Shown here: piece after piece, positions 14,542 to 46,678 of the stretch
Layout: each line of letters opens with the position of its first letter
Numbering within the stretch: the first letter of the stretch is position 1
NCBI GenBank assembly: GCA_003833135.1
Contig: QZLH01000002.1
Location: forward strand, 277,896-341,895
Origin: Oehlia diaphana
Lineage: Eukaryota > Glomeromycota > Glomeromycetes > Glomerales > Glomeraceae
Length of the DNA stretch: 64,000 bases
Direction of reading: 5' to 3'
The notes under the pieces: model-generated
Database searches by the model: none
Seen by the model: the letters and a program-made list of their open reading frames with translations, nothing else
What the model was told of the DNA's origin: nothing
Made by a program: the position numbers and the translations under genes

Positions 14542-17500
14542 TTACATTCCACTTGAGACTTTAATACAGTCGACTTTCCTGTGTCTTTTCAGATCATTAT
14601 CTTGACAATTTTTACTACAATAATACACTGATTTACACTTTGAACATATTTTTGTAGTATACTTTCTACATCGCTTGCATATATTTACTTCATCATATTC
14701 TTTATATTCGGTTTCACTATTCCACATATTATGACATACATTTTTCTGCGTCACCTTGGATAAGGTTATCATCTCTGCGGATGAAATAATTACTCTTGAA
14801 CCTATATTAAATTCTAAAATCCAGTCTTTATGATTATCATAGAATGGAATTGGAAGATGAAACGATATCATTATTATAGGTGCCTTTATAGAACTTATGG
14901 AAACACTATCGAAGTAATAATAATTTGGCTCTTGATTATCATTGTTGCGTTTATTTTTTTGTGTTGTAAAATCACTGGTATGAGTGATAGGTTTAATTAA
15001 TCGTAGCCATATCATCTCTGTTTCTGGACATACTGTTTTTATATATTTACCGTTATACCATTCAAGAGTGTGCATTTTATCCTTAACTTTCTTTTTAGTT
15101 TCCCATTTCAAAGAGTATCTCGCAATAGGTACTTCTAAATCATTAAGTTCCTTAAGTTTTGAAACAAAGGGCAAACAAAAATGCAATGTCATAAAAGTCT
15201 TCAACTCAACAAGGTGCATTGCAAAATTTGGAATATACTTATTAAATCCCTTAGATGTAAAAAGGGATTGTAATAATCGTGCCATTATTTCTTCAGAAAA
15301 TCGAATATTCATTATTTGAAACAAATGTACAATTATATTAATACTGAGTCCATAAATACGTTTGTTATGAGCAGTACAACAAGCACTTGCAACTGATATC
15401 ACACCATTAATTAATGTATCAAGCTTTTCTTCTTTATCTTTAGCTATATCAAATTTCCATGTAATATATACAGCATAATCTTTAGAGTAAGCATTTACAA
15501 ATATAATGCCTGTTAATTTTGAAAGAGTATTTAGACTTAAACCAAGTTGTTGTTCAACAAATTCTTTCATAGAATTATTAGGCGGATTATGCAACTTTAT
15601 TAGTTGCAGAGTTAATCGAGAATTATCCTTTAATCTAGGTGCAGCTGCCAAGATTATATTCAGAAGTGATATATGATCAGCTAAATTTGAGCAGTCAATA
15701 GCGTTAAATCTCACAGATGGAGGCAATCGACAGAGTAGTGTGTCAATGATGTCTCCCAAAACTGGCATAACTTGAATTTGAACTGAAGAAGTTTTATGTA
15801 ATGATGCACGTACAGATGCAAACTTTGGTAGTAAAGTCAATAATAAATAATCGTAAAGTGTTAACGGTTGGTCATCATCATCATCATCATCTGAATCCTC
15901 ACTATTTTCAGTATTAATTCGAAATGTACGAAATATACAAGAAGTTGGGTAGACATCATATTCCATTGCGGGAACTGATAACATTGTGACATTAGGCTTA
16001 TCAAGAATATTAGAATATACATTAATGTAAGATCGAGCTTGATTACTAATTGGTAGCTGACAACAAGCGTATTCTTTAATATCTTCATCCACATAATAGC
16101 GTTCTTTAAGGTTTCTTAATATTTCAATTTCTGGTGAAAATTTTCTATCCAATGTAAAACTGAATAAATGATTGGCGTCCCAATTCAGAGCAAAAGCTGA
16201 GAGTGAATTATTTTTCCAATATTGTAATGTTTGTAATATAAAAAATTCTGTATTTGATGAATATTTAAATGAAATCCAAGAGGGAAGTCTCTTATTGGAA
16301 CTATCGTTATTGCATCTATTAGATTTTATATTTATTTTATTTTCAAGAGATTCAATTAGACTATGTATGCAACTAGTCAGATTATTATATGTATCATCGC
16401 TAATAACTTTTTCAGCCCACACTGACAATATTTCCATTACACCGATAACAAAATTTTTATTCCATTGACCATATATACCCTTTTTGTTTGATGAAGATGG
16501 TGGTTTTGGGTCTGGTAATCTATTGATCATTTCAATAAGTACTAAATTACGAGTAAGCGCTGTCGGATTTAAATTATTGATTGTAAAAAGTAGATTGATA
16601 TTGTAGTTATGGCTTCCTAACATTGTAAGGTCATATACTGTTTCAACAATGTTAGATAAATCATTAATGCCACCTAAAAATATTGAAAATTTTTTGTCAA
16701 AAATAGTTGTTCCAGTTGTTGAAGTCGAGTTGATGCAGAAATTTTTTAATAGATTGAAACCATATGTATTACTAATAGCATAGAGAAGTGTCTCTTCATA
16801 AAATAAATGAATTCCTGGTCGATTAGAAGAGATGTTAAAATTAATAAAATTTTGATCATTTGATTCATCAAGATAATCAATTCCAATTTTATTATCGATC
16901 ATTTTAACTCGAGCTAGGAGGGAGATGTTTCCCCTCTTGTTAGAATGAATACTGTTATTTTTTATAACCACTCTTCCATGATAGTTTATGCCAACTTCAA
17001 TACCATATGATCTATTATTGTGAATATTATTATTTAAAATAACAGCATCTGTACCTCCTTTGATAATACATCCAGAAGTAATACCATTTGCTATTTCATT
17101 ATTTTCCATTCGCACATTAGCTCCAAAGTCTACGCTAACACCAAAAGCACCATTCTTCAAAATTCGATTCTTTTGTAACACAGCAAGTGTTTGTGAAGGT
17201 TTTGTGTAAGATTCTCTAGGGGGGGGTGGCTTAATAGGTTCACCGAAGGAATCATAAACATAGTTATGAATAAATTGATTAGCTTCTTTTGATGGTGCTG
17301 GTTCACGGTATCCATGGATCAAAATTCCTCCTTGGTTGTCGTAGATATCATTATTAATAAGAATGATTTCTTTGGCATCTAACCATGCCATAACACCTTT
17401 ATCGTTGTGATGAATTTCATTATTCTCAACATGTAAACTCGATCCATATCGTACTTCAAATGCACTCAATCCTATATTAAAAATGTTGCAATTTGTGACC

Positions 17501-18306
17501 TTTGCCTTGCTATCACTAGATATTAAAATACCACCATTGTCTCCAATCGAATTGGCAACAACACATTTGTCCATAGAAAGTGTTGTTTTTCCATAAATGC
17601 AAATGGGAGGTGCTGTACCAGAACATTTAGTAAACCAACAATTATTTACAAAAACTTGGGATGCTTCCGTTTGTAAAGAATGTCCTTCAGTACATTCGAT
17701 ATGAATATTATATAGTATAAGTCTACTATAAAAACCAAAAATTGTATGTTTTTCATAGTTTTTAATTGTCACATTACCGATTCCTATGATCACAACGCTT
17801 TTTTTAATAATAAGCAAAGTAGCTGTGTATGTACCAGGTCTAAGAATCAAAACTTTGTCTTCTAATAACCAATGGATTGATAATTCATTAACTTCTTCAT
17901 TGTAAATCTGAATCTTCTGCGGAGGCGGAAAAGGCATCTTTTCACGTTGTTGGTTAAAGAGTTTAGCATCATGATCAGTTTCTTCCAATACCGCAGCAAT
18001 TAAAATATTAGCATACGCACATATTGGATTGCCAATTGCAGCATATATCTTTGCAATCATACCGTAAGCTTCTTTATTATATATGCCATCCAAACTAATA
18101 GACATGTTGAGGTAATCCAAAGCTTTAAGTTGGTTTTCTTTTGTTTCATTACTATTTTCAATAATAGCTTTTGCGAGATTTAAATAAATTGTTGACAATT
18201 CTTTCCGTTCTTTGTATGAATGTAGCGACGCTTTAGGATGTCTGTCCCAGAAAATTTTCAATTCCTGCATATGGATTTCAAACTTAGAAATGCCATTGGA
18301 TTCCAT
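14542..18306 (-). CDS. right-handed beta-helix / DUF4470-like / MYND zinc-finger protein, copy 1
   Basis: One uninterrupted 1254-aa frame. Residues 1-130 are helical and TPR-like. About 150-500 is a parallel beta-helix of the FBXO11/NosD type, with many repeats such as NNEIHHNDKGVMAW and NNNIHNNRSYGIEVG. At about 545-610, SIFLGGINDLSNIVETV followed by NLVLIEMI resembles DUF4470, a domain usually found with MYND fingers. The C-terminus (about 1209-1247) is a MYND finger (ICKRC, CSKC, YYCSKNCQ, HRKVDC). An acidic Asp run encoded by GAT repeats lies near residue 810. The start is fixed by alignment with copy 2 (ME-S--I-KFEIHM-ELK). MYND fingers bind proline-rich partners and beta-helices bind extended ligands or peptides, so a scaffold role is possible; the function is unknown. 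The gene is inverted relative to copy 2 at 33818-38065. Confidence 0.8.
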   Translation of the reverse strand: MESNGISKFEIHMQELKIFWDRHPKASLHSYKERKELSTIYLNLAKAIIENSNETKENQLKALDYLNMSISLDGIYNKEAYGMIAKIYAAIGNPICAYANILIAAVLEETDHDAKLFNQQREKMPFPPPQKIQIYNEEVNELSIHWLLEDKVLILRPGTYTATLLIIKKSVVIIGIGNVTIKNYEKHTIFGFYSRLILYNIHIECTEGHSLQTEASQVFVNNCWFTKCSGTAPPICIYGKTTLSMDKCVVANSIGDNGGILISSDSKAKVTNCNIFNIGLSAFEVRYGSSLHVENNEIHHNDKGVMAWLDAKEIILINNDIYDNQGGILIHGYREPAPSKEANQFIHNYVYDSFGEPIKPPPPRESYTKPSQTLAVLQKNRILKNGAFGVSVDFGANVRMENNEIANGITSGCIIKGGTDAVILNNNIHNNRSYGIEVGINYHGRVVIKNNSIHSNKRGNISLLARVKMIDNKIGIDYLDESNDQNFINFNISSNRPGIHLFYEETLLYAISNTYGFNLLKNFCINSTSTTGTTIFDKKFSIFLGGINDLSNIVETVYDLTMLGSHNYNINLLFTINNLNPTALTRNLVLIEMINRLPDPKPPSSSNKKGIYGQWNKNFVIGVMEILSVWAEKVISDDTYNNLTSCIHSLIESLENKINIKSNRCNNDSSNKRLPSWISFKYSSNTEFFILQTLQYWKNNSLSAFALNWDANHLFSFTLDRKFSPEIEILRNLKERYYVDEDIKEYACCQLPISNQARSYINVYSNILDKPNVTMLSVPAMEYDVYPTSCIFRTFRINTENSEDSDDDDDDDQPLTLYDYLLLTLLPKFASVRASLHKTSSVQIQVMPVLGDIIDTLLCRLPPSVRFNAIDCSNLADHISLLNIILAAAPRLKDNSRLTLQLIKLHNPPNNSMKEFVEQQLGLSLNTLSKLTGIIFVNAYSKDYAVYITWKFDIAKDKEEKLDTLINGVISVASACCTAHNKRIYGLSINIIVHLFQIMNIRFSEEIMARLLQSLFTSKGFNKYIPNFAMHLVELKTFMTLHFCLPFVSKLKELNDLEVPIARYSLKWETKKKVKDKMHTLEWYNGKYIKTVCPETEMIWLRLIKPITHTSDFTTQKNKRNNDNQEPNYYYFDSVSISSIKAPIIMISFHLPIPFYDNHKDWILEFNIGSRVIISSAEMITLSKVTQKNVCHNMWNSETEYKEYDEVNICKRCRKYTTKICSKCKSVYYCSKNCQDNDLKRHRKVDCIKVSSGM

Positions 18307-18860
18307 ATCAAAGAATTCTTTTATTTCTATGTGAAGAGTACAGGTTAATATATAGTGAACGTTCCAAAAAAGTTTTTATAAAAGATCTAGCAATTTGATA
18401 TATGATTACAATTTGCGGCGTATTTATTAAAAAAAAACGAGCACCAAAAGGTATACATTAATTTAATGTATAATAATAAAGGGTAATTCACTTTAAAAAA
18501 AAACTACATTAATTTTCTGATCGTTATTTATATAATAGAGTTAGCGTTTTTCAAAAAAATTATGTGCATGCACTATACTAACCATATATAACATACAGTA
18601 AATAAAGACCAAATATCATTGTATTATTATGCTTCAATAATACCATAACAAAATAACAATTACTTGCAATGCATAATTTTCACATTTATTTTATGACGTT
18701 CACAGCAGCGATAATAATAACGCCAGAAAAAAGCGAATTTAACTTTAATCGCTTAGCTCAGAACTCTTTTTTTCATGGATTTTCTATAAATAAATTCTGA
18801 TAATGTACGGCTTATATAGTGGGCGTTCCCGTTTCAAAGAAATTTAATTTCGAACTATTG
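18307..18860 (-). promoter_or_regulatory. upstream region of MYND copy 1, a promoter found in several copies
   Basis: Reading toward the gene there is a core at about 18857-18812: GAAATTAAATTTC, TTTGAAAC, GGGAACGCCCAC, then TATATAAG. Two segments of plus-strand DNA at 29352-29775 and 29976-30300 match this region over several hundred bases, including TCCATGAAA/GAGTTCT and TAATTGTTA-type blocks and an AAATTGTAATCATAT block. Sharing of the core and a TATA-like box between copies suggests promoter function. Confidence 0.5.
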
Positions 18861-22107: not shown

Positions 22108-24383
22108 ATGTTGTCAGGAGTAGTGTCAAATGTATTAATCTATATTGTATTAGCAATATTCTTAGGAATTGGAATTTACGCAGGATATAAGAAAACAAAA
22201 AATAAATCTGATTATCTTTCCTCATTGGGTACTCAAAATGCAGTCGCTCTAGGTTCTAATTGGTTTGCTTCAAGTAAGAACTTAATTATATGAAGAAAAA
22301 GATCCGTTTGAGAAAATTTTTGAGGCGGCGGGTTTGTATAACAGTGTATTTATACGCTGTACAGGTAAGGTGCTCCATCAATGAAAGTGCCAATGATTGA
22401 GACTCGTTTGATGTTATGTAATAATTCGAGGAATTCTTATTATTATGTAAATTATTCACCTTTCGTTGCTGCAAATAATGTGTATATAAATTTTCTTTTT
22501 TTTTGCATTCACAATCCAGTAATTACTCTTGAATATTTACATAATATCTTTCGATTCTCTGATAAAAATTAATAAAATTTGGATTGGTACTACGGGTGCT
22601 CAACCTTTCATGTGTTTTTAAAATAAAAACTGAAAGGTTGGGCTGAGAAAGCACCGTTAACTACCTGATCAGGGTAATACCTGCGTAGGGAAGCTGCCAC
22701 TTCAAATACTCTTTTCATTTACGTCCGGGTTTCATTATTTTATTCTTTCTTCTTAGGTATCGGTTCATCTATATTATATTCTTTTCCCGAAGTTGGTACC
22801 ATAGCAGGATTATTAGGCGTAATTATGTATGCTTTTGGAAGTATTATACCTTTATTTGTATTTGCATGGCTTGGACCTTTGATTAGGAAAAAATGTCCCG
22901 AAGGATTTACTTTGACCCAATTTGTTCTGGAAAGATTTGGACGCTTGAATCAAATTTATGTTTCTTTAATGTCAATTGCTTATATGTTTTGCTTTATGAT
23001 AAGCGAGTTATCAGCTGTTGGCAATATTTTGGCGACATTGACGGGTGTAGATAAACTTGCTCCAGTTATTTGCATCGCAATAGTTACAACTCTTTACACT
23101 GGTACTTATCAAGATTCAAAAAAAAAAAAAGTTCTTTTCTTTTACTTCATTCAAATTAAAAATTTTATTATTTTAAATAGGATATGGAGGTTTACGTGCA
23201 TCCTTGATCACGGATAATATTCAAGGATGGGCTATTATTTTACTTGTTGTATTGTCTATAATTGGATTGGCAACTTCAATAAGAATTGAGAAATCAGTTA
23301 TCGATAATTCCGATCTCTTGAAATCAAATTCTTTAGGATGGCAACTACTTTACATCATGCCCGTTGCAGTCTCATTCGCGACACTTTTCCACGAGGTATC
23401 TAATGAATATTACATACATTTTTATTAATCTCTCTCTTCTTAACCTCGGCTCTTTTCTGTTTTGTTAAGGGTTTCTGGCAACGCGCATTTTCATCAAAGA
23501 ATGATCGTGAATTGCGTCTTTCCGCAGTTTATGGTTCAATTATGTTATTTCCTGTTCTTGTATTTCTCGGTCTCACCGGAATGATAGCTGTATGGTCTGG
23601 ATTATGGCCAGGAGAGGAAAATTTAGAAGCATATTTAGCATTTTTCACTTTATTTAAAGTATTACCAGACTGGGTTAGCGGAATTACTGTAGTGTTAGCC
23701 GTTAGTATGAGTTGTGCTGCTTATGATACATTAATTAGTGCGACAACAGCTAACTTTTCAAATGATATATTTAACAATCGTCTTCCATTGAATGTTACTC
23801 GTTTTTTATCACTTATTGCTAATGTTCCAGCTGGTAAGAAGAAACCATTTTTTTTTAAAGTGATATTATTAATTGTTTTTTTAACTCAATCCGTATTTTG
23901 GTAGTTTATTGGGGACTGAAAGATTTAGACGTGTTGAGGGTTTTTCTTATTGCAGATCTCTTGGCAGCATCCACAATGCCTCCAATATTATTAGGTTTAA
24001 TAGATTCGCTATACTTTCTCAACTGGATCGACGTATTATTGGGAGGCATAGGAGGTTTATTTGGTGTCTTCATCTTTGGTTCAATTTTCTATCATAATGC
24101 TAAAGACGGAATTGAATTAATCGGTCTACCTTTAGGGCTTTATATTACTGATTATAGTGTATTAGGAGCATTTATTGTTGCACCTTTATCTTCAATTTTC
24201 TTTACTTTCCTTTCTTTTGGTGTAAGATTGACTAGTGTGTGGGTATTTGCTAAAATTAGGGGAGAAAAGTTTGTGTTCCCTGAGAAGCCTGAAGTTGTTG
24301 ATACTAAGAAATATGCTGGTAATAAATTTAAGGATGATACGGAAGCTATTCAATCTTCTGACCCTGATGAAATAGAAATTTAA
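22108..24383 (+). CDS. DUR31: sodium:solute symporter (DUR3/DUR31-like), predicted thiamine transporter
   Basis: Five exons: 22108-22273, 22757-23101, 23181-23395, 23470-23833, 23905-24383; 1569 nt, 522 aa. It is a polytopic membrane protein of the SSS family. It has the N-terminal LGIGIYAGYKKTKN loop, the NWFASS...GIGSSILYSFPEVG segment of the first discontinuous helix, GGLRASLITDNIQG and HEGFWQRAF, all typical of the DUR3 group. At 522 aa it is shorter than most DUR3 proteins (about 650-700). DUR3 members move urea and polyamines; the DUR31 branch in Candida moves thiamin under a TPP riboswitch. The intron-1 aptamer here points to thiamine as substrate. The start was chosen at 22108 because the in-frame ATG at 22015 opens a T-rich leader. 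Symbol by family analogy; urea or polyamine transport cannot be excluded. Confidence 0.8.
22334..22373 (+). promoter_or_regulatory. alternative 5' splice site with adjacent hairpin in intron 1
   Basis: A near-consensus donor ACAG|GTAAGG has its GT at 22365. It competes with the coding donor TCAA|GTAAGAAC at 22274. Use of it would retain 91 nt and stop translation after six extra codons (stop at 22291-22293). CAGGTA (22362-22367) is complementary to TACCTG (22662-22667), and GGTGC (22369-22373) to GCACC (22651-22655), both inside the TPP aptamer. A hairpin (CAGTGTA / TACGCTG, loop TTTA) sits just 5' of the donor. Confidence 0.55.
22585..22699 (+). promoter_or_regulatory. TPP (thiamine pyrophosphate) riboswitch aptamer in an intron
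   Basis: All conserved parts are visible. P1: TGGTA (22585-22589) with TGCCA (22695-22699). P2: GGTGC (22595-22599) with GCACC (22651-22655). P3: a perfect 10-bp stem CAACCTTTCA (22601-22610) with TGAAAGGTTG (22631-22640), 20-nt loop. The pyrimidine-sensing core CTGAGA is at 22643-22648. P4: CTAC (22661-22664) with GTAG (22685-22688). P5: CAGG (22670-22673), loop GTAATA, CCTG (22680-22683). The pyrophosphate side has ACCTGATC and GCGTAGGGAA. It lies in the sense strand of intron 1 (22274-22756) of the transporter. Eukaryotic TPP riboswitches usually act by steering splicing. Confidence 0.96.
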
Positions 24384-25497: not shown

Positions 25498-27217
25498 TTA
25501 AATTAAAATTTTTGACATATAAGGACCATCTAAAGTATAACCTAATTTTTGATAATATTTTCTTACGCCAACACCACTAATAACAGCTAATTTAGAACTA
25601 CCATGTTCAAACTTAGCAATTCTTTCAGCCTCCTCCATTAATAAAGTACCATACCCTTGATGTTGAAATTTAGTAGGATCTCTATTATGCATAGGTACAA
25701 CACTACCATAAACATGTAATTCTCTAACAATAGAAGTAGGACAAGAAGTTAATTCGGGGCGAAAGGTGGTCGAAGAACATTTTCTTAATCTTAAAAGACC
25801 TATTAAAATGTCTTGTTTTGGATCTTCATATGATAAAAACGTTTCCCATCCACCATTTGCTACATAATCTCTTCTTATTAACTCAACCTCATCAGGTCTA
25901 ACTTTATTATGAATATCAACAATACCAACTTCTCTCGTTCTAACATCCCTACATTCAATACCTAAATCTTTCATTCTATTTAATGCTAATTCACGTAAAT
26001 TTCCATGTTCAACGCCGGAAGTAACTAATGGCATTGGGATGTCTCTTTGAACACGATATACTCTCGTCCATGGAGGTACCAAAGCCAATATTCTCGCCAC
26101 TAAATCAACTAATGCATTTGGAGTATAATTTTTGTATCTTCCCGTTCTCCATAATTCGTATAAACCAGTTCCGCGAATTACCAAAGTAGGGTAAATTTTC
26201 AATCCATCTGTACGAAATGCTGGATTTTCAAAATATTCTTTAAATTGTTCCAAATCACGTTCCATTCCAACATTTGGTAAATCAGGCATCATGTGAGAAA
26301 CTACTTTATATCCACAATCTTTTGCTAATTGGAATGTCTCTATAACGGCTTTAACAGTGTGACCTCTATTTGTATCTCTCGCAACATCCTCGTATACACT
26401 TTGAACTCCAATTTCCAATCTAGTACATCCATATCTCAACATTTGACTTAAATGAGGTTTAAGACAATAATCAGGACGTGTTTCAATCGTGATCCCAATA
26501 CATTTTGTCATGCTTTGCTCAGAATATCTTACAGACTCATCAACATCATTTGTTGTATGTCCCGATAATGCATTATGTAGATTAGCAATAAACCAATTTC
26601 TATAGTCTTCAGGTAATGACATAAATGTACCTCCCATTACAATATATTCAACTTTATCCACATTATGCCCGAGACTTTTTAATTGATCGACTCTTCCTCT
26701 TGCTTGTTCCAACGGATCATATCTTGCCCTTATAGCTCTCATACTAGTTGGTTCATATCCCGTATATGATTGTGTAGAATATTCAAAATCAGAATCTGGT
26801 CCTCCCGGACAATATACACAAACATTTCCTGTTACTGCAATATGTGGGCATCTATGTGGTTTACACATAACTGCTACTATCGCAATCCCTGAAGCTGTTC
26901 TAACGGGTTTCGCTTTAAGTTTAGGTAATAATGCCTGTTTATATTGTTCGGGTATAGCTGCTATAATATCAACTAATTTTGGTTGATTATTCAATTTATT
27001 CAAACGAGAATATTTAGTCTTCAATCCATTTAAGTTAATGTCTTTTGAATTCTCTTGCGCTATTATTAATTCATTAACTATTTCACTACAAGCTTTAACC
27101 ATTAATTCGGCCTACACATTATAAATAAAAAATAAGTTATTAAACTATGAATGATGAATAACGTAATAGAATGTCACTGCAAACCTGAGTTGGCCCTTTT
27201 TTGTTTTTTGTAGCCAT
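25498..27217 (-). CDS. ELP3: Elongator complex catalytic subunit Elp3
   Basis: Two exons: 27217-27185 ([11 protein letters not shown]) and 27111-25498; 1647 nt, 548 aa, close to yeast Elp3 (557 aa). The radical-SAM domain has the C-x9-C-x2-C cluster motif (Cys 99, 109, 112, in [14 protein letters not shown]) with [14 protein letters not shown] and [12 protein letters not shown] downstream. The C-terminal GNAT acetyltransferase domain has the acetyl-CoA loop [14 protein letters not shown] and the [13 protein letters not shown] segment. Elp3 makes the cm5-type modification of wobble uridine in tRNA within the Elongator complex. Start chosen because the short first exon supplies the conserved GPTQAELM leader. 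All key residues appear intact. Confidence 0.97.
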
Positions 27218-44000: not shown

Positions 44001-44038
44001 CGCCCGCTTCTCATTAATTCAACACATTAATTTAAATC

Positions 44039-46678
44039 ATGTCACAAACAAAAATCAACATCAAAAACGAATCTTCCGTCCCTATTCTTAAACGGGATGG
44101 ATTTGGAACAAAAGGACGAGTCGTTACAGTGAAGGCCAATAGCTTCGAAGTGACAAAAATCTCAAAATATGACGAATTCCTTAAGTATACTCTTGAGATC
44201 AAACCAATCGATGCTGAAAAGAATATTGAAGCTGACATCAAACGTGAAAGATCAGATTATGGAAAGAGTATTAGACGCAGGATTCTTAAAGAACTTAGCC
44301 TTAAAAAGGGAGAATGGTTCCAAAATGTTGTTGTTGCATATGATGGTGGTACTACTCTTTTCACAACTGACCGTCTAGGATTCGACAAAGAGACCGAAAC
44401 GAAACCAGTTGTTATAGAAATTATTATTCTTAAAGACATTCATAATATTAATGGCAAGTGCACTCAATACAGTGTACAGATTAGCCGAACAGATACTGTC
44501 ATCAAGTTAACACAGTTAGAGAAGTATATTAGTGGAGAAGAGTTTGAGTGGGATTTTTTCAGCGACGATTCCCTTGACGTCCTCAACGCTCTGATCCATC
44601 AAAGAGCGGCAGAAAAGTTCATTAAATCCGGTAAAAGTTCAATTTACAATAAGGGAAACAAGACAAAAATTACTGGTGGTATTGAGTTGTGGTCTGGATG
44701 GTTCTCGACCGTGAGACCAGGTCAAGAAAGCTTGTTCGTTAATGTGAACCCTACATTTACCACTTTTTATCAGCCATTGAGACTAGATGAATTTCTTCTC
44801 CAATATCTTTATCCAAAATATCAAAACCTTCCTGACGAATTTAGTGATTATCAGCTGAAAGACATTAACGAAATACTCAAAGGCCTGCTTGTTTGTCCTC
44901 TACACCTGGAATCTGTACATACTGAGAGACGCATTAAAAAGCTCCTACCTGCTACCAAAGTAGCACATTTCGAATATAAACCAATGACAGATTCGGAAGA
45001 AACATTTCCGCTTGAAAAGTACTTCGAGAACAAATATCAACTCCGAGAGACAAAAAAGCTCTTTGTCGAAATAATGAGTGAAGAGGGTACGCATATCGCC
45101 TGGCCAATTGAGTTTTGCCAAATTACTGAGGGGCAGCGTTACAAAACCAACAAGTTGACCGGAAAACAGCGAGCAGAAATCATTTCGGCTGCTAAGATGA
45201 AACCTTACGAGCATGAAAAAGAAACAATCAAAGGCGCCCAAGAAATCTTACAGCTTCATAAAAACCCAACTGGGGTTGGTATGGAAGTTGCGTCTCATTT
45301 AGCCGAAGTCGATGCACATGTGCTTGAATCTACAGCTGTTGAATATGCAGAAAACGTTACAATTCCCGCAAATAATGGAAAATGGAATCTCAAAAACGTG
45401 AAGTTTGTTAAAAGTGGGGAAACACTCGCCTTCTGGCAGGTTGTTGTCTTTGAACAACAAGAAAAACGGATATCCGAGGAGGATGTTTACAGTTTTATTG
45501 AAAAACTTATAACACAATGCAAAATACAAGGGATGAATATTACAAAAAATATTCCACATATCCAATATGTCCAATATCATAAAGATGATTTAGATAAGGT
45601 CATTAAATCAACTTATGAAGATGCAAAAAAAACACTCAACAGACCACCACAAATGATGCTCTTTATTATTCCTGGAGATAAGATCCAAAGTACCAACACC
45701 AAACTTTACGAAACTATCAAGCGCGTTATGGATATTGAGATTGGCTGTCTCACTCAATGTGTAAGCGTAAATTCCAACTATAAGAAACTTTTTAATAATT
45801 TGCAATACTGTGCCAACCTCACCATGAAGATGAACCTTAAGCTTGGTGGTGTAAATTCGGTTCTGCCCGAAAAAAAAATTGGTCTTCCCAGTGGTGAAGA
45901 TGTCCTCTTACTTGGTGCTGATGTAACTCACCCTAAAGACAAAAATGGTTGTTCAATTTGTTCTGTTGTCGGCTCACTAGATAATCGAGCCACTCGTTTC
46001 ATTACAAAATATCAAGTTCAAGAGCGCTCCGGCAGGGAGGAGATTATTAATATTGACAAAATGATAAAGGAAGTGTTGGAAGACTATTGCAACTACAAGA
46101 AGAATGAAAAAGGAAATATCAAAAATACAATGGCGTCGCATCTTCCACCATGTATTATTATGTACCGTGATGGTGTTAGTGAATCCCAGTTTGAACGAGT
46201 ACTCAAATGGGAACTTCTCAAGATTAAAGAAGCATGTGCCGAGTTCCAAGCAGGCTATCAACCAAAGATCACTTTCGCAGTCGTTGGCAAACGTCACCAT
46301 ACGAGACTGTTTCCTGGAAGTCCTAAGGAGGCTGATAAAAATGGCAATTGTCTTGTTGGAACAGTTGTTGACAGAAGGATCACTCATCCCACACTTAATG
46401 ACTTTTACCTCCAGTCACACTATACACATCAAGGAATGGCACGTCCTTCTCATTACACCATTCTTTATGACGATATCAAATTAACAACGGATGAGTTTCA
46501 ATGTTTGAGCAATGCATTATGCTATAACTTTCAGCGCACCACATCTAGTGTAAGCATTCCGTCACCCACATATTATGCACATCTGACTTGTGCCCGAGCG
46601 AGAATGTATTTGAATGATGACATGAAATTGCCAAAAGTACACCCAAATCTCGAAAAATACCCTATGTATTTTATGTAA
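44039..46678 (+). CDS. AGO: Argonaute protein (slicer-type, intronless)
   Basis: Single exon, 879 aa, a usual eukaryotic Argonaute length. Order: ArgoN region (FGTKGRVVTVKANSFEV), L1 (GGIELWSGWFSTVRPGQ), PAZ (about 240-360), MID (about 430-590), PIWI (about 590-860). The catalytic tetrad D-E-D-H is complete: Asp 628 (LLGADVTHP), Glu 668 (GREEII), Asp 711 (MYRDGVSESQF) and His 848 (SPTYYAHLTCARAR). It should therefore be able to cut target RNA guided by small RNAs. The 2.6-kb frame has no intron and is less AT-rich than neighbouring genes, and it has its own TATA box. AM fungi are reported to have many AGO copies; the lack of introns suggests a recently amplified, perhaps retrocopied member (inference). 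Confidence 0.95.
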   Translation: MSQTKINIKNESSVPILKRDGFGTKGRVVTVKANSFEVTKISKYDEFLKYTLEIKPIDAEKNIEADIKRERSDYGKSIRRRILKELSLKKGEWFQNVVVAYDGGTTLFTTDRLGFDKETETKPVVIEIIILKDIHNINGKCTQYSVQISRTDTVIKLTQLEKYISGEEFEWDFFSDDSLDVLNALIHQRAAEKFIKSGKSSIYNKGNKTKITGGIELWSGWFSTVRPGQESLFVNVNPTFTTFYQPLRLDEFLLQYLYPKYQNLPDEFSDYQLKDINEILKGLLVCPLHLESVHTERRIKKLLPATKVAHFEYKPMTDSEETFPLEKYFENKYQLRETKKLFVEIMSEEGTHIAWPIEFCQITEGQRYKTNKLTGKQRAEIISAAKMKPYEHEKETIKGAQEILQLHKNPTGVGMEVASHLAEVDAHVLESTAVEYAENVTIPANNGKWNLKNVKFVKSGETLAFWQVVVFEQQEKRISEEDVYSFIEKLITQCKIQGMNITKNIPHIQYVQYHKDDLDKVIKSTYEDAKKTLNRPPQMMLFIIPGDKIQSTNTKLYETIKRVMDIEIGCLTQCVSVNSNYKKLFNNLQYCANLTMKMNLKLGGVNSVLPEKKIGLPSGEDVLLLGADVTHPKDKNGCSICSVVGSLDNRATRFITKYQVQERSGREEIINIDKMIKEVLEDYCNYKKNEKGNIKNTMASHLPPCIIMYRDGVSESQFERVLKWELLKIKEACAEFQAGYQPKITFAVVGKRHHTRLFPGSPKEADKNGNCLVGTVVDRRITHPTLNDFYLQSHYTHQGMARPSHYTILYDDIKLTTDEFQCLSNALCYNFQRTTSSVSIPSPTYYAHLTCARARMYLNDDMKLPKVHPNLEKYPMYFM

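Follow-up and report, generated by a model that had tools for sequence, protein, structure and literature searches.

The 64,000-nucleotide stretch of Oehlia diaphana DNA analysed here (the window; contig QZLH01000002.1, positions 277,896 to 341,895) carries a thiamine pyrophosphate (TPP) aptamer within intron 1 of a DUR31/NCU01977-type transporter gene of the SSF family. Very probably this aptamer is part of a riboswitch that controls the choice of 5' splice site and closes import when TPP is high, so that an RNA sensor would probably shut down synthesis of a likely vitamin B1 importer when the vitamin is abundant. The elements computed here are the aptamer, the gene model, two donors, in-frame stops, an alpha/alpha' complementarity, mutually exclusive folds and the family relationships of the protein.

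A covariance search of a 1.3-kb stretch with the Rfam family RF00059 returned a match on the forward strand at 22582-22708, covering model positions 1-105 of 105 with 51.4 bits (E 7.7e-9). In the whole genome (108.8 Mb; 49 of 1645 first-look candidates scored) the aptamer was the sole match, with an E-value of 1.5e-7. The original prediction had placed it at 22585-22699, which holds as a location, the covariance match extending somewhat further on both sides. The elements it had listed are all present and in order: a perfect 10-bp P3 (22601-22610 with 22631-22640), which lies within a 13-pair stack of the predicted fold, the pyrimidine-sensing motif CTGAGA (22643-22648), and a pyrophosphate-sensing half formed by P4, J4-5 and P5 (22663-22692), with ACCTGATC starting at 22663, TAAT, and GCGTAGGGAA starting at 22683. 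The TPP-recognition motifs (CUGAGA, J4/5 with GCG, UAAU) thus stand in order, and the J4/5 guanines at 22667 and 22685 keep the 18-nt spacing of TPP aptamers, the roles of the motifs and the spacing being taken from PMC5882874. The aptamer fold has a z-score of -3.89, and one of 200 shuffles folded equally well. On sequence grounds 22582-22708 is confirmed as a full-length TPP aptamer, and we infer that its RNA binds TPP.

The gene around the aptamer comprises five exons on the forward strand, which join into an open frame of 522 amino acids with GT-AG borders at all introns. Exon 1 (22108-22273) holds 55 codons and the first base of codon 56, as predicted for an aptamer lying in the sense strand of an intron that splits the coding sequence after residue 55. 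Intron 1 (22274-22756, GTAAGA...TTCTTAG) is 483 nt long and in phase 1, and is followed by exons 2 (22757-23101), 3 (23181-23395), 4 (23470-23833) and 5, which includes the stop codon (23905-24383). The protein belongs to the SSF family (PF00474, 64.7 bits against a cut-off of 22.8), in agreement with the earlier family assignment. It is 98.7% identical to Rhizophagus diaphanus C1646_649619 over 522 aligned positions (515/522); a seven-residue gap at the exon 1/2 junction accounts for the whole difference, and the glomeromycete origin proposed for the gene is upheld. R. clarus P0003 joins the same two exon ends exactly as in our gene model. A protein search of the Oehlia genome gave five matches, all of them exons of this locus, and no second copy of the gene was seen. 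Orthologues carry the names 'urea transporter' or 'hypothetical protein' or bare coding sequence (CDS) tags; solved DUR3 chains are only remotely similar to the window protein (best E 9.9e-5). A PF00474 search of the same genome missed the transporter gene itself and found one other SSF match, at C47:179618-180268, perhaps a true DUR3 urea transporter.

Two donors of the form GTAAGN share the acceptor that ends at 22756. According to the sequence and gene model, use of S1 (CAA/GTAAGA, 22274-22279) leads to the full-length protein and use of S2 (CAG/GTAAGG, 22365-22370) keeps in-frame stops in the message; four such stops are met when S1 is read through, the first being a TGA at 22291-22293. 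In the Type II switch of Neurospora crassa NCU01977, an alpha element (consensus RGCGGYRRY) situated between S1 and S2 base-pairs with P1' at low TPP (PMC5882874). Here, positions 22324-22332 agree with that consensus at 8 of 9 positions, and since the motif with one mismatch occurs 62 times in the window against 53.6 expected, the match alone is weak and near chance frequency. The pairing is a different matter. In the ligand-free fold an alpha element at 22319-22331 forms 12 pairs over 13 positions, including two G-U pairs, with an alpha' element at 22694-22706 (the P1' strand and its flank), whose alternative partners are P1 or alpha. The duplex between the P1' region and the S1-S2 segment reaches -20.3 kcal/mol, equalled 6 times in 2000 when either side was shuffled, and by 3 of 4248 other 91-nt windows; this comparison applied the published rule to a pairing already held by an earlier fold and is not blind. 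In these models the alpha/alpha' pairing is stronger evidence than the motif match.

The complementarity extends to the second donor itself. The whole S1-S2 segment pairs with the aptamer at -48.5, a value matched in 8/400, 8/400 and 1/598 controls. The S2 region (22362-22374) is predicted to pair with the aptamer in the ligand-free fold, 22362-22367 with 22662-22667 of the P4 strand and 22369-22374 with 22650-22655 of the P2 strand. A 51-mer around S2 scores -33.9 against the aptamer (equalled in 9 and 10 of 1000 shuffles), and of 2086 windows of 51 nt compared with the aptamer, the one that pairs best with it (-40.5) begins at 22327 and overlaps S2, whereas the corresponding S1 51-mer has no comparable complementarity to it (-14.7; 647 and 637 of 1000 shuffles). 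When the aptamer is enforced, the mean unpaired probability of S2 rises from 0.17 to 0.45 with one of two fragment lengths and to 0.70 with the other, and that of S1 is nearly unchanged (0.32 to 0.35 and 0.32 to 0.32). Directly before S2 a 9-bp hairpin, ACAGTGTAT/ATACGCTGT with one G-U (22341-22360), is a competitor of the long-range pairing. Of the branch-like motifs, those closest to the acceptor are TTAAC (22657) and CTGAT (22665), at distances of 96 and 88 nt; both fall within the aptamer, and none of the motifs scanned for occurs within 48 nt 3' of the aptamer; with this placement (22657-22669), TPP binding could block the branch site too.

Taken as a mechanism, these folds suggest that at low TPP alpha (22319-22331) would pair with alpha' (22694-22706) and the P2 and P4 strands would pair over S2 (22365), hiding it; S1 would be looped towards the 3' splice site, and removal of the whole intron would yield the 522-aa importer. 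At high TPP the aptamer would reclaim the strands for P1, P2 and P4 and free S2, so that the message would retain in-frame stops, or remain unspliced, and import would be turned off, presumably with nonsense decay of the message. Masking of S2 alone, as in NMT1, was considered as the mechanism and was widened once the published alpha element was taken in.

That the window transporter is a thiamine importer is strongly suggested by its relatives. Candida Dur31 was identified as a thiamin transporter by the pyrithiamine resistance of deletion strains, its clade includes NCU01977, and its gene carries an intronic TPP switch (PMC5997356). McRose and co-workers place the fungal relatives, as SSSQ, beside prokaryotic SSSP/ThiV proteins with TPP riboswitches (PMC4260697). 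We searched bacterial loci with one peptide pattern; 64 stretches matched, 36 were confirmed by tblastn, and all 36 were scanned for RNA families. RF00059 scored above its gathering score in 15 of these 36 loci encoding relatives (12/20 and 3/16). In 14 loci the end of the aptamer lies about 12-163 nt upstream of the estimated start of the open reading frame (ORF), and in one, L019, about 1.8 kb upstream; in the other 21, none was found at the gathering score within the DNA scanned.

The genomic setting appears to be that of a fungus unable to make vitamin B1. Reports on arbuscular mycorrhizal (AM) fungi describe them as lacking thiamine biosynthesis (PMC6007072, PMC12574304, PMC11134847), and in the Oehlia genome family searches of limited sensitivity gave no match to Thi4, NMT1/Thi5, thiamine monophosphate (TMP) synthase or thiazole kinase. 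For the TPP-enzyme family PF02779 there were eight matches. Searches with three models of thiamine pyrophosphokinase, PF04263 (E <= 0.001), TIGR01378 (E <= 10) and PF04265 (TPK_B1_binding), did not find the enzyme, the last giving one sub-threshold match in an ORF that looks GTPase-like by eye. Such absences are weak and no proof, as the same genome search with PF00474 missed the transporter itself. If thiamine pyrophosphokinase were truly absent, TPP itself would have to be imported; the search may simply miss the enzyme. It is plausible, as had been proposed, that uptake is the only control point for thiamine in this fungus.

Gene models of other species point to the same intron. Sorted by name, 88 BLAST rows comprise 17 glomeromycete, 30 other fungal, 6 prokaryotic and 35 unnamed proteins. 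The alignment starts after residue 8 in 14 of the 30 named non-glomeromycete fungal homologues, and at residues 53-57 in ten of these, which all belong to Dikarya. Six of the ten have their own first residue at 57, and four (P0027, P0028, P0029, P0032) carry 32-47 unaligned residues before the junction. Starts at residues 53-57 occur in none of the six named prokaryotic relatives and in 8 of the 35 unnamed ones. On the glomeromycete side, one R. clarus model (P0002) starts at the junction, the R. diaphanus protein (P0001) is gapped there, and inserts occur in proteins of Funneliformis (P0005), Acaulospora (P0007) and Geosiphon (P0011); Gigaspora P0012 is among those reading straight through. 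A uniform null for these breaks is crude, Met being common at residue 57 in the aligned Dikarya, so that gene finders favour starts there once exon 1 is lost. The simplest reading of this indirect evidence would be a hard-to-predict intron at the same place in Glomeromycota and Dikarya.

Homologues in Glomeromycotina were found in Rhizophagus, Funneliformis, Diversispora, Acaulospora, Ambispora, Geosiphon, Gigaspora, Dentiscutata, Cetraspora and Entrophospora, and partial ones in Paraglomus and Racocetra; viral contigs yielded no transporter relative (34 pattern matches, none confirmed). A tree was built from 50 hand-chosen rows, the window protein and 49 of 113 proteins, leaving out partial and most unnamed proteins as well as NCU01977, CpDur31 and Dur3. 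It was drawn with a midpoint root and its order read with the prokaryotic rows as outside, three rows without an organism name (P0051, P0056, P0078) being taken as prokaryotic. The 15 glomeromycete rows, window protein included, form one clade (support 98/96) that stands beside, not within, Dikarya (fork 97/94), the tree joining the window protein with homologues from Sordariales, Xylariales and smuts. Jimgerdemannia (Endogonales, one row), Zoopagomycota and Anaeromyces lie further out than Glomeromycota plus Dikarya; the placement of the long branches of Pelagibacter, Anaeromyces and Smittium is unsure. The position of the glomeromycete clade speaks against a recent transfer from Dikarya, which we hold unlikely, and from these sequences the gene looks to have descended vertically. 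We consider it possible, at slightly less than even chances, that the whole circuit of S1, alpha, S2, aptamer and acceptor, with its fixed intron position, is homologous across Glomeromycota and Dikarya and inherited from their common ancestor, and that in AM fungi it outlived the loss of thiamine biosynthesis as the sole genomic TPP sensor, with import of host- or soil-derived B1 gated by RNA.

Several observations weigh against this picture. At 51.4 bits the aptamer lies 2.9 below the Rfam gathering score of 54.3, a listing threshold and no biological feature, and as a result a scan of the whole window at the gathering cut-off listed nothing for RF00059. The original prediction had named a covariance score below threshold as refuting it; in that literal sense the search goes against it, while the match in the window is full-length and its E-value low. 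In the alignment P3 carries an insert of 31 nt, and ten P3a positions are missing. According to PMC11683625, fungal aptamers with a long P3, typically >60 nt, are missed or truncated by RF00059, and as P3 spans about 40 nt here, this bias explains the low score in part only. The predicted ligand-free ensemble is 9.4-10.5 kcal/mol more favourable than the aptamer-enforced one, probably more than ligand binding would easily repay at equilibrium; either co-transcriptional folding sets the balance or the energies are off, and the gap counts against a simple equilibrium switch. The R. diaphanus protein P0001 lacks SNWFASS (22253-22273), which would fit an end of exon 1 at a non-consensus GTTCTA donor, and this annotation, judged from the protein, seems to imply a further donor with seven residues dropped. 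Intron 1 falls short of the 650-900 nt that PMC5882874 gives for Type II switches. Neither NCU01977 nor Candida DUR31 is named among the homologue matches. Finally, the species tree of PMC11134847, in which Glomeromycota is sister to Mucoromycota plus Mortierellomycota, conflicts with the position of Jimgerdemannia, the sole row from Mucoromycota, outside Glomeromycota plus Dikarya, which leaves some room for an old exchange of the gene between lineages. The proposal that the link between riboswitch and DUR31 predates the split of these lineages is supported: the alpha-type element between the donors, the junction breaks in 10 of 30 fungal homologues (all Dikarya) and the glomeromycete clade beside Dikarya speak for it, though the placement of Jimgerdemannia does not fit it fully.

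Among other explanations, the one with the best claim, though we judge it unlikely, is a real switch that acts through a blocked branch site or through intron retention, which has been proposed in some algae and observed for the one-donor DUR31 of Ogataea, with S2 of minor importance. It would fit the location in the aptamer of the branch-like motifs nearest the acceptor, with none of those scanned for in the 48 nt that follow, and in Candida parapsilosis there is little evidence of regulation through the second donor, while unspliced RNA goes up (PMC5997356). The window S2, however, is a consensus-like donor, and an alpha element together with a complementarity that masks S2 is improbable by chance. 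Less probable again is a cargo other than thiamine, either the pyrimidine precursor HMP (hydroxymethylpyrimidine) or another thiamine-related compound. HMP or AmMP (aminomethylpyrimidine) has been proposed as the cargo of the prokaryotic relatives (ThiV/SSSP, SAR11; PMC4260697), but HMP would be useless to a fungus in whose genome the TMP-synthase and thiazole-kinase families were not found. Thiamine-phosphate synthase was likewise not found in the Glomeromycotina genomes of PMC12574304, and the pyrithiamine resistance that follows deletion of Candida DUR31 (PMC5997356) favours thiamine as the cargo.

The score slightly under the family cut-off would also suit an aptamer that no longer regulates anything and was left behind when thiamine synthesis was lost. 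With the TPP-contact motifs in order, the stems and the G-G spacing intact, and the alpha/alpha' and donor arrangement equally intact, we regard such a relic as very improbable. Hardly any weight can be given to a chance match or to contamination, that is, to there being no TPP aptamer or to a non-fungal locus. The empty default Rfam scan is what could be cited for it; it was rejected on the genome-wide E-value, on the agreement of a multi-intron gene model with an annotated R. diaphanus protein, and on the presence of ELP3-like and Argonaute-like frames in the same window.

The riboswitch class, the transporter and the long-range mechanism are already known. New are the lineage, the presence of the switch where biosynthesis is reported to be lost, and the age that the alpha circuit appears to have. 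No report of a riboswitch in Glomeromycotina was found in the literature searched, supplementary tables being beyond reach, and the main texts of PMC5997356, PMC5882874 and PMC11683625 mention neither Rhizophagus nor Glomeromycota. The locus names the likely B1 importer of an AM fungus, and splicing there would be a direct read-out of fungal vitamin B1 status. This may be of practical interest, as the difficulty of growing AM fungi without a host is partly ascribed to the loss of thiamine synthesis (PMC6007072, PMC11134847) and one asymbiotic medium adds thiamine because of that loss (PMC8755765). If our reading is right, an RNA switch of Dikarya, long-distance element included, would also be present in Glomeromycota, and the many gene models of this transporter family that break at one junction would be accounted for.

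Elsewhere in the window, an ELP3-like frame (ELP3_N, radical SAM) lies downstream of the transporter on the opposite strand (25498-27111). A 1277-aa frame at 14542-18375 combines beta-helix repeats with DUF4470 and a MYND finger, and a single open frame of 880 aa at 44036-46678 carries the Argonaute domains Piwi, PAZ, ArgoN, ArgoL1 and ArgoMid.

The locus resembles several known systems. The prokaryotic ThiV/SSSP loci (names as in PMC4260697) share homologous SSF proteins and a TPP aptamer with the window, but there the aptamer precedes the ORF and splicing is absent. TPPsw-SUGAR of Mucoromycota likewise couples a TPP aptamer to a transporter gene in a related lineage, but in the 5' untranslated region of sugar-transporter genes, other transporter classes being described as largely absent in most Mucoromycotina (PMC11683625). 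Fungal Type III switches, like ours, sit in an internal intron that has a stop in frame between its two donors; their published length is 200-400 nt, and the text of PMC5882874 describes no alpha element for them, whereas the window intron measures 483 nt and has alpha. C. parapsilosis DUR31 shares two donors, an aptamer and one acceptor near the 5' end of the gene, a protein of 525 aa against 522 aa here, and stops in the unspliced RNA of both. It differs by a non-consensus second donor with little regulation and by an intron of 351 nt (PMC5997356).

N. crassa NCU01977, the Type II switch, belongs to the same transporter family by description. It has its aptamer in an intron of the coding sequence, with several donors, the first alone leading to the full protein, and with an alpha element that lies between S1 and S2 and can pair with P1', features that the window matches by sequence only. 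Unlike NCU01977 as described in PMC5882874, the window S2 is itself also complementary to the aptamer. The window switch would thus work like Type II without being a strict Type II switch, given the length of its intron.

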